A stretch of 28,963 nucleotides of DNA from a virus, in IMG/VR virus record IMGVR_UViG_3300046009_003447, positions 1-28,963 of that record. One strand, 5' to 3'. The notes under the pieces are model-generated. The model was not told the origin of the DNA, ran no database searches, and saw nothing but the letters and a program-made list of their open reading frames with translations. Numbering within the stretch: the first letter of the stretch is position 1; each line of letters begins with the position of its first letter. The position numbers and the translations under genes are program-made. Of the stretch, positions 380-12,980 are shown piece by piece.

Positions 380-1675
380 TTAGAAACTGGGAGATGGGTC
401 GGAGAAGCGGCAGTATTGGCCTTCGTACCAAAGGGGCACCAGGCCGCACTCACCGTCTCGTTGTTTGGCGATAGCAATCACAGCTTCGCCTTGGGGCTGG
501 TTGCGCTCCCTGTTGAGCAATAGGACTAGATCAGCGTCCCTCTCAATCTGCCCAGAGTCCGCTAGGTCAGTCAGGCGAGGTACCCGGCCCTTGTCTTTCT
601 CGTTCTCTCGATTGAGCTGAGCCAGGGCAACCACGGCTGTCTTGGTATCGGAGGCCACGCCCTTGAGCCTGCCAGATACTTCTGCGATCTCGTAGGTCTT
701 TTTCTCTGCGGCCTTCGATCCATGGATCTTCTGGAGGTAATCCACTAGGACCAGCTTCACGCCCCATTTGCGTACAGCCCTGCGGATCACCGCGGTGATG
801 GTGGCAATGTTGGACACACCGGATCCTGAGATGAAATGAATCGGGCTGCCTGCGATCTTGGCCGAGGCTGTGGACATGGCCTTCATGCCTCCCTGATCAA
901 GCTGGCCGGTCTTGATGTCCTGCATGGGTATGCTGCCAACAGACGAGACCATCCGGCGCACGATGGACTCGTCGGACATCTCTAGGCTGATGAACAGGGT
1001 GGGGATCCTTGAGTCAATGCTGGCTGCCTTGGCAATGGCAATGGCAATGGCTGTCTTACCGATGGATGGCCTGGCCGCAATGATGGCCAGCTCACCGAAC
1101 TGGAAGCCGTCGGTCATCTGGTCGAGCCTGTGGAAGCCCGAGGTGATCCCGGAGAGCTGTCCCTGCCTTGAGAATCGTTCCTGTGTCGAGTCAATGAACC
1201 GACTGACAACCGACTTGGACGATTGGACTTCCTCCTTGGATGCCTCAACGGTGAGCCCTGCTTCGGCATTAGAGACGATTTGATCGACGGAGAGGGTGGA
1301 TACAGCGGACTCACGAATCAGACGGTCTCCAGCGGTTCTGAGATGGCGTCTGTGGTGGGCCTCTAAGACGGCCTGAGCGAATGCCGGGTAGTTCGCTGGG
1401 CTCGGACACATCTCGTCGGCCTTGTTCAGAGCCTCGAAAGGCACCGGAGTCTGGCCCATGGAGCGCTTCCACTCCTTGACCACGGTGGCCATGTTGACCG
1501 GATCGCTCTTGGCAACGAGGCCTTTGGCGATCTCGAACACATTATACAGATCGCTGTCCTGTAGAGCATCGCTGGGGATCTTGGCGAATACCTCGTGGCA
1601 GACATCGGAGCCACCGGAGAGACAGGCGCCGATGAGGCCGAACTCGTCGTCCTGGGCGAAGTAGGGGTCGCTCAT
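380..1675 (-). CDS. dnaB: DnaB-type replicative DNA helicase
   Basis: 431 aa, close to normal DnaB length. This hexameric ATPase should unwind DNA at the phage replication fork. The N-terminal domain covers about residues 1-145 (opening DPYFAQDDEFGLIGACL, as in DnaB N-domains), then a linker, then the RecA-like C-terminal domain. Visible motifs are the Walker A box ARPSIGKT (201-208), the catalytic Glu in SLEMS (232), Walker B LVLVDYLQ (308-315), ALAQLNRE (350-357) and KQRDG (404-408) near the arginine finger. The start codon overlaps the stop of the initiator gene by 4 bases (ATGA), so translation is probably coupled and the initiator is probably its loader or partner. No primase (TOPRIM) domain is fused and none is seen in the window, so priming probably relies on the host. 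Confidence 0.96.
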   Translation of the reverse strand: MSDPYFAQDDEFGLIGACLSGGSDVCHEVFAKIPSDALQDSDLYNVFEIAKGLVAKSDPVNMATVVKEWKRSMGQTPVPFEALNKADEMCPSPANYPAFAQAVLEAHHRRHLRTAGDRLIRESAVSTLSVDQIVSNAEAGLTVEASKEEVQSSKSVVSRFIDSTQERFSRQGQLSGITSGFHRLDQMTDGFQFGELAIIAARPSIGKTAIAIAIAKAASIDSRIPTLFISLEMSDESIVRRMVSSVGSIPMQDIKTGQLDQGGMKAMSTASAKIAGSPIHFISGSGVSNIATITAVIRRAVRKWGVKLVLVDYLQKIHGSKAAEKKTYEIAEVSGRLKGVASDTKTAVVALAQLNRENEKDKGRVPRLTDLADSGQIERDADLVLLLNRERNQPQGEAVIAIAKQRDGECGLVPLWYEGQYCRFSDPSPSF

Positions 1676-2409
1676 TGGTAGTCGGCAATGTTGAGGCTGT
1701 ACGCGCCGGTGCCGTTGTTCCCAGAAGGGGAGGTGCTTCGAGACTTGTCGATCTCTCCGTTCCAGTTGTTCAACAGGGTCATCAACTCACGTCGAAGGTA
1801 TTTGTCGTCTGACTGGTAGCGTGCTTCCAAGGCAACCAAGTCTTCCTCCGGAGTGTTAAATTCGAAGATCTCCTTCAAAGCCTTGATCTCCTTGTTGCTC
1901 CATTGGGTTGTTGGTCGACGGCGGATCATTGCACCGACTCGTAAACGGAAGGCTTCGAGCTCAGGTAAAAGATCACGCGAAACAATTCGCTCCTTCCCTT
2001 CCATTCCCTGTTCCTCTTCCCTGTTCCCATTCCCTGTTCCAAGGCAATCTTTCTCGAATCCTCGCGAATCCTCTCGAACATCGTCGAATGGTGGCAGCTT
2101 AGAGGCTGAAGGCTTGTCGATTTTCTGATGATTTTGCCACTTTGGGATGTCCAAGTAAGATTCACCGTCGACCTGATAGAGCCTGATGCAGCCTTGCTTC
2201 TCAAGTTCTGAGATCCACACAGGAAGACGCTTGAAAGCATCCTCGTCGTAAGGGAAAAGACGACTCGCGAGGAGTCGCGAGGATGCGCGAGCCCTCCCGA
2301 CATCGTCGCAGCATGAAAAGAGGCCGATGAAAAGCAGTCGAGCCTCTCTTGAAACTCTACCTAGACTTTCGGACTCCCAAAACTCGGGCTTGATTGATCG
2401 AATTCTCAT
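1672..2409 (-). CDS. phage replication initiator / helicase-loader-like protein
   Basis: 245 aa. The opening RIRSIKPEFWESESLGR is typical of phage replication proteins with an N-terminal winged helix (about residues 1-105, including LLFIGLFSCCDDVGRAR and YLDIPKWQNHQKI). A charged low-complexity linker follows (about 106-140) and then a helical C-terminal domain (about 145-230) that usually contacts the helicase. The linker is encoded by a repeat-rich DNA segment (2004-2090), the same arrangement as lambda O, where the origin lies within the initiator gene. It overlaps the neighbouring ORFs by ATGA at both ends. The name is by family resemblance and position next to DnaB; initiator versus loader cannot be separated from sequence alone. 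Confidence 0.87.
   Translation of the reverse strand: MRIRSIKPEFWESESLGRVSREARLLFIGLFSCCDDVGRARASSRLLASRLFPYDEDAFKRLPVWISELEKQGCIRLYQVDGESYLDIPKWQNHQKIDKPSASKLPPFDDVREDSRGFEKDCLGTGNGNREEEQGMEGKERIVSRDLLPELEAFRLRVGAMIRRRPTTQWSNKEIKALKEIFEFNTPEEDLVALEARYQSDDKYLRRELMTLLNNWNGEIDKSRSTSPSGNNGTGAYSLNIADYQ
2004..2040. repeat. three 13-bp-spaced iterons inside the initiator gene
   Basis: The 11-mer TTCCCTGTTCC occurs exactly at 2004-2014, 2017-2027 and 2030-2040, with a strict 13-bp period. A decayed relative (TTCCCTTCC) precedes it at 1994-2002. The period is not a multiple of three, so the repeats are not explained by repeated amino acids. They lie in the inter-domain linker of the initiator gene. 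By analogy with lambda ori, these are candidate binding sites for the initiator. Confidence 0.72.
2051..2090. repeat. four tandem 10-bp repeats beside the iterons
   Basis: Four consecutive 10-base units, TTCTCGAATC, CTCGCGAATC, CTCTCGAACA and TCGTCGAATG, share the core TCGAA or GCGAA. They begin 10 bases from the last 13-bp iteron. A 10-bp period puts the cores on one face of the helix, and the period is again not a multiple of three. Together with 2004-2040 this forms an origin-like block of about 90 bp. Confidence 0.55.
2264..2293. repeat. 10-bp repeats with TCGCGA core in the initiator gene
   Basis: Two adjacent 10-base units, CTCGCGAGGA and GTCGCGAGGA, are followed by a degraded third, TGCGCGAGCC. 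They share the palindromic core TCGCGA. They lie in the coding part for the N-terminal domain (SSRLLASRLF region), about 170 bp upstream in the gene from the iterons. The function is unknown. Arginine-rich coding may explain part of the pattern. Confidence 0.4.
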
Positions 2410-2618
2410 TGATGCGCCTTTGCAGCAAGATGTGAGTTCCTGTTCTCAATCGCCTTCGCTTTTGCTTGCTGAAGCATTTGGCAAACCATATCCACGTTGT
2501 GGATGGCTAATAATACCAAGCTATCATCTCCCCAAGGATCGGGCTGGTAGATGCAGATGTAGCCAACATCTGATGCGTACACTTCGGTGTCGTTCTGACT
2601 TTGGATTTCAAGTTTCAT
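2406..2618 (-). CDS. hypothetical protein upstream of the initiator
   Basis: 70 aa. It overlaps the initiator start by ATGA and follows the structured intergenic element at 2630-2701. The sequence VYASDVGYICIYQ, then WGDDSLVLLAIHNVDMVCQML, reads as a small alpha/beta fold ending in a lysine/alanine-rich helix. I have the impression of similar short proteins in other phage genomes (a Y-x-S-x-x-G-Y-I pattern before an acidic stretch and a V-M helix), but I know no function. No membrane segment. The start is fixed by the intergenic element just upstream. Confidence 0.7.
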   Translation of the reverse strand: MKLEIQSQNDTEVYASDVGYICIYQPDPWGDDSLVLLAIHNVDMVCQMLQQAKAKAIENRNSHLAAKAHQ

Positions 2619-2629
2619 GTCTTAAACGG

Positions 2630-2701
2630 AAAACCCCACCCAGACCGTGCTAGGAACTCGCGCAGAACCAACGCGACGTGTCACGGAAAGGGTGGGGAAA
2701 A
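2630..2701 (-). promoter_or_regulatory. nested three-stem hairpin in the intergenic region (structured leader or terminator)
   Basis: This lies in the 183-base gap between the exonuclease and the next ORF. Three inverted repeats nest inside one another: CCCCACCC (2634-2641) with GGGTGGGG (2690-2697), CCGTG (2645-2649) with CACGG (2682-2686), and TCGCG (2658-2662) with CGCGA (2672-2676), around a 9-base loop. On the minus strand the outer stem ends GGGTGGGGTTTTCC, about a dozen bases before the start codon at 2618. It could be a terminator after the exonuclease, or a folded 5' leader controlling the initiator-helicase genes. The stems are seen directly; the function is inferred. Confidence 0.6.
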
Positions 2702-2801
2702 GTTTGTTGAGCATGGGTCCTGATTGTAGTGTCGTCGTTTGCTTCCTAGGGCTCACGTCGACGGTCTCTACCTATCTGGCATCCTGGTTGTTGTCCAGCC
2801 C

Positions 2802-3461
2802 TCAGTAGGCCGGTATCAGAATATCCGCCACCTGCTGGGTTAACTGCACGTCCCTCAGGCAATAGTCGATGGCTGCCTGGCGGTCGGTATTCCACAGCAG
2901 ACTAAAGTCGGCGCCGGTGCCTGTCTTGTCACCTAGGCCCAAGTGCCGGCTGATTGCACCAAGGCTTCCGTGCGCCCGGCTGTCTCCAAGCTGCCACACC
3001 TCGCGCAGGTCGATCACCAGATCGTTCCAGTATCGTCCCTGGCGCAGCCAGTAGGGAGGAAGGATGCGGTGCTTCCAGGAGCGCTTGATGAGGAACGGTA
3101 GATCGAAGGCCTTAATGTTGAATCCGACGAGTTTAGGCTGCCGCTCGTAGTAGTTACACAGCTCCCACCATTCCCGGAGCATGGCGGCCTCGTTGCCGTC
3201 GTTCTTCAGCACCGCGGTCACCTGGTGCTCGATGCGGTATCCGATGCACAGGATCTGCCCCGAGAGAGCGTCCAAGGCTGCGTTCTTGATGAAGTCCGCG
3301 GTGTGGTTCTCCTCGGCCTTTTGAATGCGCTCGGCGATGAGGTCAGGGTTCTTGACGTTGCCCAGCTTCACGTCGGCCGGATTGAAGGGTGGTATGTTGA
3401 GTTCCGACAGTGGTAGTGGCCCGGTCTCGATGTCGAAGATGATTGTTGGGTTTGCTGGCAT
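2802..3461 (-). CDS. DEDDy-type 3'-5' exonuclease (DnaQ-like / PolB exonuclease-like)
   Basis: 219 aa, a stand-alone exonuclease domain. All three Exo motifs are visible: ExoI FDIET with D10 and E12, ExoII GFNIKAFDLPFL with D120, and ExoIII YCLRDVQLT with Y200 and D204, which makes it the DEDDy subclass. These residues coordinate two metal ions to remove nucleotides from 3' ends. No polymerase gene is present in the window, so it may proofread for the host polymerase or act in recombination or repair. The leader just upstream is A-rich (GAAAGCAATTTAGCAAT) with no Shine-Dalgarno site. The 99-base gap before it contains GATGCGCG twice (about 3490 and 3507) and nothing else I can name. Confidence 0.9.
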   Translation of the reverse strand: MPANPTIIFDIETGPLPLSELNIPPFNPADVKLGNVKNPDLIAERIQKAEENHTADFIKNAALDALSGQILCIGYRIEHQVTAVLKNDGNEAAMLREWWELCNYYERQPKLVGFNIKAFDLPFLIKRSWKHRILPPYWLRQGRYWNDLVIDLREVWQLGDSRAHGSLGAISRHLGLGDKTGTGADFSLLWNTDRQAAIDYCLRDVQLTQQVADILIPAY

Positions 3462-10070: not shown

Positions 10071-10082
10071 ACAGGGGTCAAA
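10061..10082. repeat. perfect tandem 11-bp repeat at the end of the tail operon
   Basis: CAGGGGTCAAA occurs twice in a row (10061-10071 and 10072-10082). The stop codon of the 896-aa tail protein (10078-10080) lies in one copy. Read on the minus strand each copy contains TTTGACC. Possible roles are an operator, part of a promoter, or a replication slippage product. Confidence 0.6.
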
Positions 10083-12768
10083 TTCCCTTGAGATCCACCA
10101 AACTCAAGGTCAGGTACTTCTGATCGTTGGTGGTGGCGTCGAAGTAACTGGCGATCACCTGAGTCTCGCGTTCCGAGTAGCTGCGGTAGGGCTTCACCCG
10201 GGTGGCTAGGACCGCAGGAAACTCTGTCGGCTGACCGTTCTCGGTCTGCCAGTTGCCCGAGGTGAAGCCGAACCGCCTGCACCAGGTCTGCAGGTTCTGC
10301 GGCGGAACAAACCAGTAATCGGTGCCGAAACTGTCCTGACCTTGAAAACACTGCACGCCGTAGCCGGTCAGAAGATCGTAGCCGGCCTGGTCGAGATACC
10401 AGGCATCTAGGTCAAAGTCAGGCTCATAGCCGGTGCCAAAGAATCCAGGCAGGCCTGGGGCCTTGTCCATTGTGCACAGGCAGTTTGATCGAGTCCATGA
10501 GTCGAGGCGCCATTGCAGCAGGTTCCACAGCCAGGCCGACTTGGGGATCTTGTGGAAGAATGGGCCGCTGCCGGGGCCGCTGTTCAGTGTCAGCAGGGGC
10601 CGGTAGGGAATATCGAACACATCGTCAATGTGGCCTCCGTTGTCGAACTTGATGGATGTCAGCCTGTCCTGGTAGGTGGCGACCGTGTTCGAGGTTTGGA
10701 GCGGCACCGTCGAGGCAAAACGAGATCCCTCTCGATCTTTAAATATGTCGTCGATCCCTGCCTGGAATAGACCAGTCGGCCCTTGTGCGAACTTCGGTGT
10801 TTTGTTTGGGCTGCCTGGGATCCGCACTGAGGCGTCGACGCCATTGGGGCCGCCCCATTTGTTCACCCAAAAGTCGGCCTCGAACCCAGCCGTCGCAAGC
10901 TGATCAGGATCACCAAACTGGGCTCGCATCAGCTCGTTATCGTAGTTGCTTGAGCTAAAGCCCCAGGGCCCTCCTGGCGGAATGAAGGCGGCGTTGATTG
11001 ATCCTTGGTAAAGAAGCGTCGATGTTGCAATGTTGCTGCCGATCTTAGTCGGGAACAGGTAGAACCATTGTCCGGTGATATTGTTGACCTTGGAAGGCCC
11101 GATCAAAACCGTGCTATCGCTTGAGGAAAAATAGAAGTTTTGCCAAGCGCCTACACCGAAACCTGGGTCATGGCTTTTGATGTAGAGCTGGTCTGATTGG
11201 GCGTAGGATTCAAAGTCAATCAGGAGGTTTCCGTCGATTCCAATAGGGCTTCCAATGCTGCAAACCAACCCTTGAGGTGTGAGCCTAAGAAGGCCGATTC
11301 GGTCTTCGGTGATGTCGTGGACGTCGTCGTAATTGTTGAGGAAACCTTGCTCAACAGCCAGCCGGCGCCGCACGTCGATGGCCTTGTCGAAGATTGTGGC
11401 CTCGTTACCGGCAGACCAGAATCCCTGAGGGTAAACCGTCGAGATCGTGAGCGGTGTGGTGCTGATCTGCCACCTGGGTGCCGTTGAATCGCAGAAGATG
11501 TTGCAATCGACCGGGCTGATCTCAATCAGGCCGCGGTCGCTGGTCAGTTCGATGCTGTTGGCATTCTGCACCACGGTGATGCCAAGGCCTTCCAGGCGTT
11601 GCACCAGGCTTCCAACACCCGTGAAGTTGACCAGTCGTTCCTCGGAGATTTCACCACTGGATCCGAAATAATAGCGCACCCGGGCACGTCCCCAGGTAAA
11701 CACCAGGTCTCCGAGTTGCTGCCTGAAGTCTCCGGGATCGGCGTAGGTCTGGGGGTAAACCTGCCGGATGTCGTGGTCTACGTCTGGGTCGATTTGAGCG
11801 CCCATCGTGTGCAACCAGTCGAACATGATGAACGGGTTGGCCACGTTGTTGGCCTGGGCCGATCGTTCCAAGGCCAGGAAGTCCGATGTGTTGGCGCCCT
11901 GCCAGCTCGGTGGTCCCTCGGCAAAGTAGGGTACATCTCCCGGGAAGTACGGGAAGAAATGGTAGCAAAACCCGCCGTTAGGCCAGCGCGTGGCCCAGGT
12001 GCCGTCCTGTCGGCGTCGGAAGGCTCGGACGGCTCCAGGACCAACGAACTGCCTGTCAGCGCTGCCATCGGGCAACTGCAGCAGCACCTGCACGGTAGAG
12101 GTCCCGCAGTTGTGGACCCGCCAGCAGTCGTAACGCTGGTATGTGTTCAGGATCCGGAATTCGCTCAGGCCCTCAATGGCAATCTCGGCCACGGCCAGCC
12201 TGTGCTTGTGGATCCGCCCAGGGGGCAGTGTAGGGTCGGAAGGCCCGAGGCTGCCGCGCACATAGGATGTCAGGCCGGATCCGACCTGTGGATCCCAGCC
12301 GAGGTGCACATCGTACTCGATGCCAGCCACCTCACGGCGCAACAGCTCGAAGCTGAAGTGAATCTTGCCGACGTCGCAGGTGAACGGATCTCCCACGGTG
12401 CTGTGGTGATCGACGTAGACCTGGCCGCCAGCCACATCGAGGTGCTTGTTCTCCAGTTTCGACAGCTCGATACGGGCGGCCACCTGGTTGTGCTCGTCGC
12501 GGTAGTAACCGATGCCAGGAATGCTCGGGCTGGGTACGGCACCATCGTCCTTGAGCCTAAGGGCGGTCTCCGGGTCGTTCCGGTAAACGTACCACACACC
12601 ATACGGGAATGGCGCCGACCATTGGGCAAAGGGGGAGAACCGCGAACTCGCCCAAAGCGGCCCCATGCCGTTCAGCGCTGCCTGGCACTTCTTATCGAAT
12701 CGGCTGTAGAGATTGTTCAGGTTGTAGGCCGTGAACATCTTGTCGAGCCTGCCAAGGGCGTAGGGCAT
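10078..12768 (-). CDS. large tail-tip / receptor-side structural protein, unrecognised
   Basis: 896 aa from ATG at 12768 (MPYALGRLDKMFTA), just after the preceding stop; an ATG five codons earlier (12783) overlaps that gene and is less likely. It is the last and largest gene of the tail operon. The composition is rich in aromatic residues, Gly, Asp and Asn (FCYHFFPYFPGDVPYF, WNLLQWRLDSW), with beta-rich stretches and no transmembrane segment or collagen repeats, as in tail hub, tip or receptor-binding proteins. I see no peptidase, lysozyme or pectate-lyase signature. Position and size suggest a tail-tip or host-contact role by inference only. It may be adsorption-related and fast-evolving. 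Confidence 0.75.
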   Translation of the reverse strand: MPYALGRLDKMFTAYNLNNLYSRFDKKCQAALNGMGPLWASSRFSPFAQWSAPFPYGVWYVYRNDPETALRLKDDGAVPSPSIPGIGYYRDEHNQVAARIELSKLENKHLDVAGGQVYVDHHSTVGDPFTCDVGKIHFSFELLRREVAGIEYDVHLGWDPQVGSGLTSYVRGSLGPSDPTLPPGRIHKHRLAVAEIAIEGLSEFRILNTYQRYDCWRVHNCGTSTVQVLLQLPDGSADRQFVGPGAVRAFRRRQDGTWATRWPNGGFCYHFFPYFPGDVPYFAEGPPSWQGANTSDFLALERSAQANNVANPFIMFDWLHTMGAQIDPDVDHDIRQVYPQTYADPGDFRQQLGDLVFTWGRARVRYYFGSSGEISEERLVNFTGVGSLVQRLEGLGITVVQNANSIELTSDRGLIEISPVDCNIFCDSTAPRWQISTTPLTISTVYPQGFWSAGNEATIFDKAIDVRRRLAVEQGFLNNYDDVHDITEDRIGLLRLTPQGLVCSIGSPIGIDGNLLIDFESYAQSDQLYIKSHDPGFGVGAWQNFYFSSSDSTVLIGPSKVNNITGQWFYLFPTKIGSNIATSTLLYQGSINAAFIPPGGPWGFSSSNYDNELMRAQFGDPDQLATAGFEADFWVNKWGGPNGVDASVRIPGSPNKTPKFAQGPTGLFQAGIDDIFKDREGSRFASTVPLQTSNTVATYQDRLTSIKFDNGGHIDDVFDIPYRPLLTLNSGPGSGPFFHKIPKSAWLWNLLQWRLDSWTRSNCLCTMDKAPGLPGFFGTGYEPDFDLDAWYLDQAGYDLLTGYGVQCFQGQDSFGTDYWFVPPQNLQTWCRRFGFTSGNWQTENGQPTEFPAVLATRVKPYRSYSERETQVIASYFDATTNDQKYLTLSLVDLKGI

Positions 12769-12770
12769 GA

Positions 12771-12980
12771 TCAGTAGAACCAAGATTCTTCAGCCGTCTG
12801 CACCGTGGTCGAACCCACCGCGGTCTTCAGCGTCGTACCATTGGCATTCTGCTCAACCCGCTGGCCAGGCCCAGCGACTAGCTGGACCCGGCGCACGGCC
12901 TCGATCAGTTGATTGATGGCCCGGGCATGGTCTGCCTTTAGGCCGCGCTCCGATAGCTTGGATGGCAGTTGCAGGGGCAT
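12771..12980 (-). CDS. small structural-operon hypothetical protein
   Basis: 69 aa. An amphipathic N-terminal helix (ADHARAINQLIEAVRRVQLV) is followed by a beta-type end (NGTTLKTAVGSTTVQTAEES). It is tightly packed: 3 bases after the 118-aa gene stop and 2 bases before the 896-aa gene. The short helix-plus-strand build is common in trimeric tail or decoration components. No family recognised. Confidence 0.68.
   Translation of the reverse strand: MPLQLPSKLSERGLKADHARAINQLIEAVRRVQLVAGPGQRVEQNANGTTLKTAVGSTTVQTAEESWFY

Follow-up and report, generated by a model that had tools for sequence, protein, structure and literature searches.

The gap upstream of the replication genes of an uncultured virus contains a structured RNA that matches no family in Rfam 15. 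It is an element of about 160 nt which, judging from sequence covariation, almost certainly folds into hairpins and two pseudoknots, and whose probable role is to gate the production of replication proteins. The window, that is, the whole stretch of DNA analyzed, is a 28,963-base uncultured virus record whose recognizable genes lie nearly all on the minus strand. Read leftward, the local gene order is a PolB-type exonuclease, a gap with the structure, a 70-aa gene, a replication initiation protein and a DnaB helicase:

2802..3461, minus strand: PolB-type 3'-5' exonuclease, the gene upstream of the element (PF10108, E 2.8e-13)
2616..2774, minus strand: whole element, a predicted double-pseudoknot leader RNA ending at the ATG of the next gene (covariance model 1-159/159, 181.5 bits; pair counts)
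2406..2618, minus strand: 70-aa protein, first gene after the element (without PHROG or Pfam match)
1672..2409, minus strand: replication initiation protein (phrog_2149, E 2.9e-36)
380..1675, minus strand: DnaB-like helicase (PF03796, E 2.6e-71)

Elsewhere in the window, a 901-aa frame (10078-12783, minus strand) is without any PHROG or Pfam match.

Half of the element is formed by three nested stems that had been described in an earlier note made from the sequence alone. All three were found with the arms proposed there, and folding and the comparison of relatives agree with them; as a description of the whole unit the note fell short, since hairpin H1 and both pseudoknots (PK1 and PK2) had been missed. 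From the 5' end of the RNA, the parts are:

2731..2762, minus strand: hairpin H1, arms 2762-2751 and 2742-2731 (93.7% of cells paired; GC/AU/GU exchanges)
2743..2749, minus strand: 5' strand of PK1, CTAGGAA, in the H1 loop (97.2% of cells paired; 4 of 7 pairs changed on both sides)
2716..2722, minus strand: 5' strand of PK2, CAGGACC, one base before the leader-ORF ATG (93.0% of cells paired; 7 of 7 pairs changed on both sides)
2622..2714, minus strand: putative leader ORF of 30 codons (MLNKLFPTLSVTRRVGSARVPSTVWVGFSV), ending in a TAA that lies 3 nt ahead of the next ATG (open frame, stop-start spacing, gene-like start context)
2634..2697, minus strand: outer stem P2, 2697-2690 with 2641-2634, arms CCCCACCC (2634-2641) and GGGTGGGG (2690-2697) (99.7% of cells paired; 5 of 8 pairs changed on both sides)
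2645..2686, minus strand: middle stem P3, CCGTG (2645-2649) with CACGG (2682-2686) (98.3% of cells paired, compensatory changes)
2658..2676, minus strand: inner stem P4, TCGCG (2658-2662) with CGCGA (2672-2676) (100% of cells paired, 2 pairs compensatory)
2663..2669, minus strand: 3' strand of PK2, GGTTCTG, in the apical loop of P4 (same pairing test as its 5' strand)
2650..2656, minus strand: 3' strand of PK1, TTCCTAG, between P4 and P3 (same pairing test as its 5' strand)

The earlier note had named two findings that would refute its reading, an ordinary folding energy and a lack of compensatory changes in relatives, and the data contradict both. The minus strand of 2634-2698 folds at -34.6 kcal/mol, whereas its shuffles average -20.9 (z -5.2, 0/200; the plus strand of this region folds with z -3.9), and compensatory changes are seen in the outer, middle and inner stem alike. 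With both pseudoknots included, the complete structure has 93.9% of its cells paired in a set of 37 sequences and 124 double-change cells against 40 in shuffles, and sliding the registers by 1-3 columns lowers the pairing to 31-51%. In a larger set of 83 distinct copies, 96.7% of the cells are paired and 432 of them show compensatory changes, while shuffles give 125.7, although, the sequences being kin, such shuffle counts are not probabilities. PK1 and PK2, each taken alone, lie beyond all 500 shuffles in both cells paired and covariation score; alignment A3 was fitted to the nested stems and not to the pseudoknots. The partner strands exchange widely, with CTAGGAA/TTCCTAG, GTGAGAA/TTCTCAC and GTAGGAG/CTCCTAC among the PK1 pairings, and CAGGACC/GGTTCTG, ACAAGC/GCTTGT, GAGAAAC/GTTTCTC, GAAGGA/TCCTTC and GATAATC/GATTATC (5' strand/P4 loop) among those of PK2. 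Around H1 there are invariant unpaired bases. When the window and 12 relatives were compared with Rfam 15, no family rose above its gathering threshold, and the best match at a permissive threshold reached 9.9 bits against a gathering value of 40.

Wobble pairs in the copies are G-U in 155 instances and A-C in 28, so that selection acts on the RNA of the coding strand. This bears on the alternative that the element is an origin or primer RNA, or a replication structure at the DNA level, which would sit well with the replication genes that nearly always adjoin it; the wobble preference, the precise fit between stop and start codons and the leader ORF all point instead to an mRNA, and render this explanation extremely improbable.

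The same element is found in well over 100 uncultured phage contigs, whose carriers constitute a family of uncultured aquatic phages. A search with the exonuclease recovered 80 viral loci, with gaps that mostly contain the element in several sequence types, and a pattern for the 5' hairpin matched at least 120 stretches; a 72-source model detected the element in nearly all of a sample of these stretches taken together with the earlier loci. It was likewise present in 22 of 22 newly fetched loci for one initiator, in 57 of the 69 searched loci with a DUF1376-like initiator, and in most loci from a DnaB search. Several sites directly before initiators that the model does not match (L267, L310-L317, L327, L331) have very different sequences and yet share the same plan, namely a hairpin with PK1, a PK2 abutting the ATG, a long stem, an open ORF of 38-40 codons and, as read from the sequence, an ATGA overlap. 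The chance of finding both pairings in order is 5e-5 for L310, 1e-4 for L312, 0/20,000 for L267 and 1.5e-3 for L327, the weakest of the diverged copies with only 4 exact pairs in PK2, and these copies are more stably folded than their shuffles, with z from -3.2 to -7.4. The architecture descriptor is unspecific, with many unrelated matches, so the analysis was confined to sites that immediately precede an initiator. Among named phages a DNA search gave no match, and the exonuclease led only to distant ones, with no element match in the MW202520 or RHph_Y25 regions. The pattern had two matches in bacterial genomes; the model found nothing in L200, and in L201 only part of an H1-like hairpin at 16.7 bits, which was taken as chance.

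Three further observations concern these loci. In one lacking the element (L251:4095-4260), the start of a methylase gene runs straight into the initiator, as if by a deletion or an assembly join. A related initiator in another phage (L330:971-1221) is preceded by an ordinary hairpin, a T run and a GAGGAG-type Shine-Dalgarno (SD) sequence, with no element. A conserved stretch, AGGAGTCTCCTT...CAGAACAGGTGAACGCGAGACCCC, is repeated in several relatives about 2.6 kb downstream of the element (L044:8401-8565, L058:6374-6538, L062:4414-4578, L068:6296-6460).

The proposal of the earlier note that the structure is a regulatory leader of replication genes is well supported, as every context examined has a stop codon on its upstream side and a start codon on its downstream side, whichever unrelated gene comes next. 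It begins at the upstream stop codon, or about 30 nt past it, and ends at the downstream ATG. Unrelated genes substitute at both edges while the RNA stays: among those found upstream are the exonuclease, a C5-methylase, a 75-aa protein and a protein of the 60-aa type, among those found downstream are initiators from several families, an HNH protein, a methylase and the 70-aa gene, and the RNA types occur with several partners on both sides. A downstream gene that varies in this way cannot serve as the shared regulator, and autoregulation by the neighboring gene was discarded on finding the same RNA types ahead of unrelated, swapped genes. The same variability, in excluding simple autoregulation by the first gene, counts against a metabolite- or protein-sensing leader, i.e. 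a riboswitch or operator with the pseudoknots as the binding site. The compact double-pseudoknot fold and the invariant unpaired bases around H1 would suit such a sensor, but no ligand-linked gene is seen and the pseudoknot strands vary freely with compensation, making it a rather improbable reading. As a separate matter, the joining of unrelated genes at both edges raises the possibility that the element is also a recombination joint between modules.

The ATG that follows the 5' strand of PK2, at a distance of 0-3 nt, opens a frame that traverses P2-P4 and terminates at the start codon of the following gene. Of 82 copies, 79 have this frame open, whereas the other two frames are open in 47 and 51; internal stops thus occur in 3 of the 82, compared with 35 and 31. 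Among 35 copies with a shifted register, the frame of their own ATG is open in all 35 (10 and 13 in the other frames); the contrast is weaker in the larger register group (43/46 versus 35 and 38). A short leader ORF is supported statistically by these counts. A conserved function of the peptide was rejected, as the register shifts alter most of it while the frame stays open; because the peptide sequence is not conserved, the act of translation rather than its product seems to matter. In 53 copies 3 nt separate the leader stop from the next ATG, and in 14 the two overlap as ATGA, a spacing that fits the overlaps or very short distances which reinitiation requires (PMC10666635). Against the coupling of leader and downstream gene stand 3 of the 82 copies with an in-frame stop 27 nt ahead of the next ATG, and some copies in which the leader stop falls 5-23 nt, and in one 122 nt, beyond the next start, where reinitiation is a weaker proposition.

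An SD-like 4-mer precedes only 1 of 21 examined genes of the window phage. Scored against the contexts of real gene starts, the leader ATG falls at the 52nd percentile and the downstream ATG at the 5th, and therefore entry at the leader ATG with reinitiation downstream is favored. The A/C-rich start contexts and the near absence of SD sequences suggest a host with SD-independent initiation.

Taken together, these features make it reasonably likely that the element is a cis-acting leader RNA gating translation of the phage replication operon, with a gate, a leader-downstream coupling and a trigger that we infer from the arrangement of its parts. The folded PK2 would cover the 7 nt before the leader ATG and keep the 30S subunit off; once it opens, ribosomes would enter the leader ORF, unfold P2-P4, terminate at or beside the downstream ATG with its poor start context, and reinitiate there. 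PK1, which joins the H1 loop to a strand that the ribosome would expose, may lock the closed state or, alternatively, form during leader translation, as in the rep leaders of I-complex plasmids. The gate might be opened by a factor acting in trans or by an antisense RNA, or its opening might depend only on how many ribosomes are available. The same parts could be read in the opposite sense, as a translation-promoting RNA whose two pseudoknots keep the leader ATG within an open linker and recruit the ribosome rather than blocking it. The scarcity of SD-like motifs, the A/C-rich linker with its gene-like start context and the retention of the RNA ahead of any downstream gene would all accord with this, but a PK2 helix so close to the ATG should clash with the mRNA channel of the 30S subunit, and we give such recruitment little credence.

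Two other roles raised in the earlier note, a terminator and a separate small RNA, found no support. On the coding strand the outer stem is indeed followed by TTTT (AAAA at 2630-2633), with the next start codon at 2618-2616; the tract continues as CCG (UUUUCCG in the RNA), P2 was not called as an intrinsic terminator by the consensus scan for terminators, and the stop-start spacing points to translation. An attenuator, in which the P2-P4 rod and the U-rich tract stop the polymerase except when the rod is melted by a ribosome translating the leader ORF, would draw on the GC-rich P2 directly before TTTT, the U-rich bases after P2 in nearly all copies and the passage of the leader ORF through the rod. 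It is nevertheless unlikely, given that the U tract is short and interrupted (TTTTCCG, ATTTCCG, TCTCTG), that P2 is not called by the same scan, and that attenuation would make the tight stop-start spacing unnecessary. As for a small RNA, the promoter scan found no sigma-70-like promoter on either strand, and the way the element is joined to the next ATG at a fixed point suggests that it works in cis.

The nearest parallels to the gating reading are plasmid rep leaders, the leader of T4 gene 32 and that of ppe2. The IncIalpha rep leader combines a repB/repY leader ORF, repA/repZ and RNAI, and a hairpin loop in it reportedly forms a pseudoknot switch, as described by Asano and Mizobuchi in 1998. 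In I-complex plasmids, translation of the upstream leader ORF is needed for expression of the initiator (PMC10286972). The phage element resembles these leaders in having an initiator downstream, a leader ORF upstream and a hairpin-loop pseudoknot, PK1 matching the pairing of an upstream hairpin loop with a downstream strand (97.2% paired, with compensation), and its open frame and stop-start spacing fit a leader ORF that would be coupled to the downstream gene. It differs in that the 3' strand of PK1 (2656-2650) ends about 31 nt before the ATG at 2618, with no SD there, where the plasmid pseudoknot has its 3' strand beside the initiator SD, and in that no sigma-70-like promoter was seen on either strand from which an antisense RNA to the hairpin might be made. 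It also resides in phages rather than plasmids, has two pseudoknots with the second abutting the leader ATG, and is shared by unrelated initiators.

The leader of T4 gene 32 is likewise that of a phage replication gene, with a pseudoknot that acts on translation (PMC3014915), as the present element would; the T4 pseudoknot lies 67 nt upstream of the start and binds the protein made downstream, whereas the gene downstream of the element varies among initiators, HNH protein, methylase and 70-aa gene, and a leader ORF is present. In M. tuberculosis ppe2, a B12 riboswitch leader masks the start of a uORF; this uORF shares an AUGA with the main ORF, which has no SD of its own and is translated through termination-reinitiation (PMC11260477). 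The structured leader at the uORF start and the AUGA-type overlap are shared, whereas the fold is different and the B12 aptamer is lacking (no Rfam match).

With slightly more doubt than assent, we regard the element as a new class of phage translation-control RNA, in which a gate of two co-evolving pseudoknots at a content-free leader ORF forms a portable cassette that can be placed between any stop and start. If so, recombination could swap replication modules freely in an SD-poor phage while a common control is kept. On the whole, the element stands for a structured RNA family not listed so far, whose covariation, that of its two pseudoknots included, is unusually clean, and it independently parallels the plasmid replication leaders; it offers a testable design for how SD-poor phages may time the synthesis of replication proteins, and presents a case in which a regulatory RNA persists as the fixed joint among freely exchanged gene modules.
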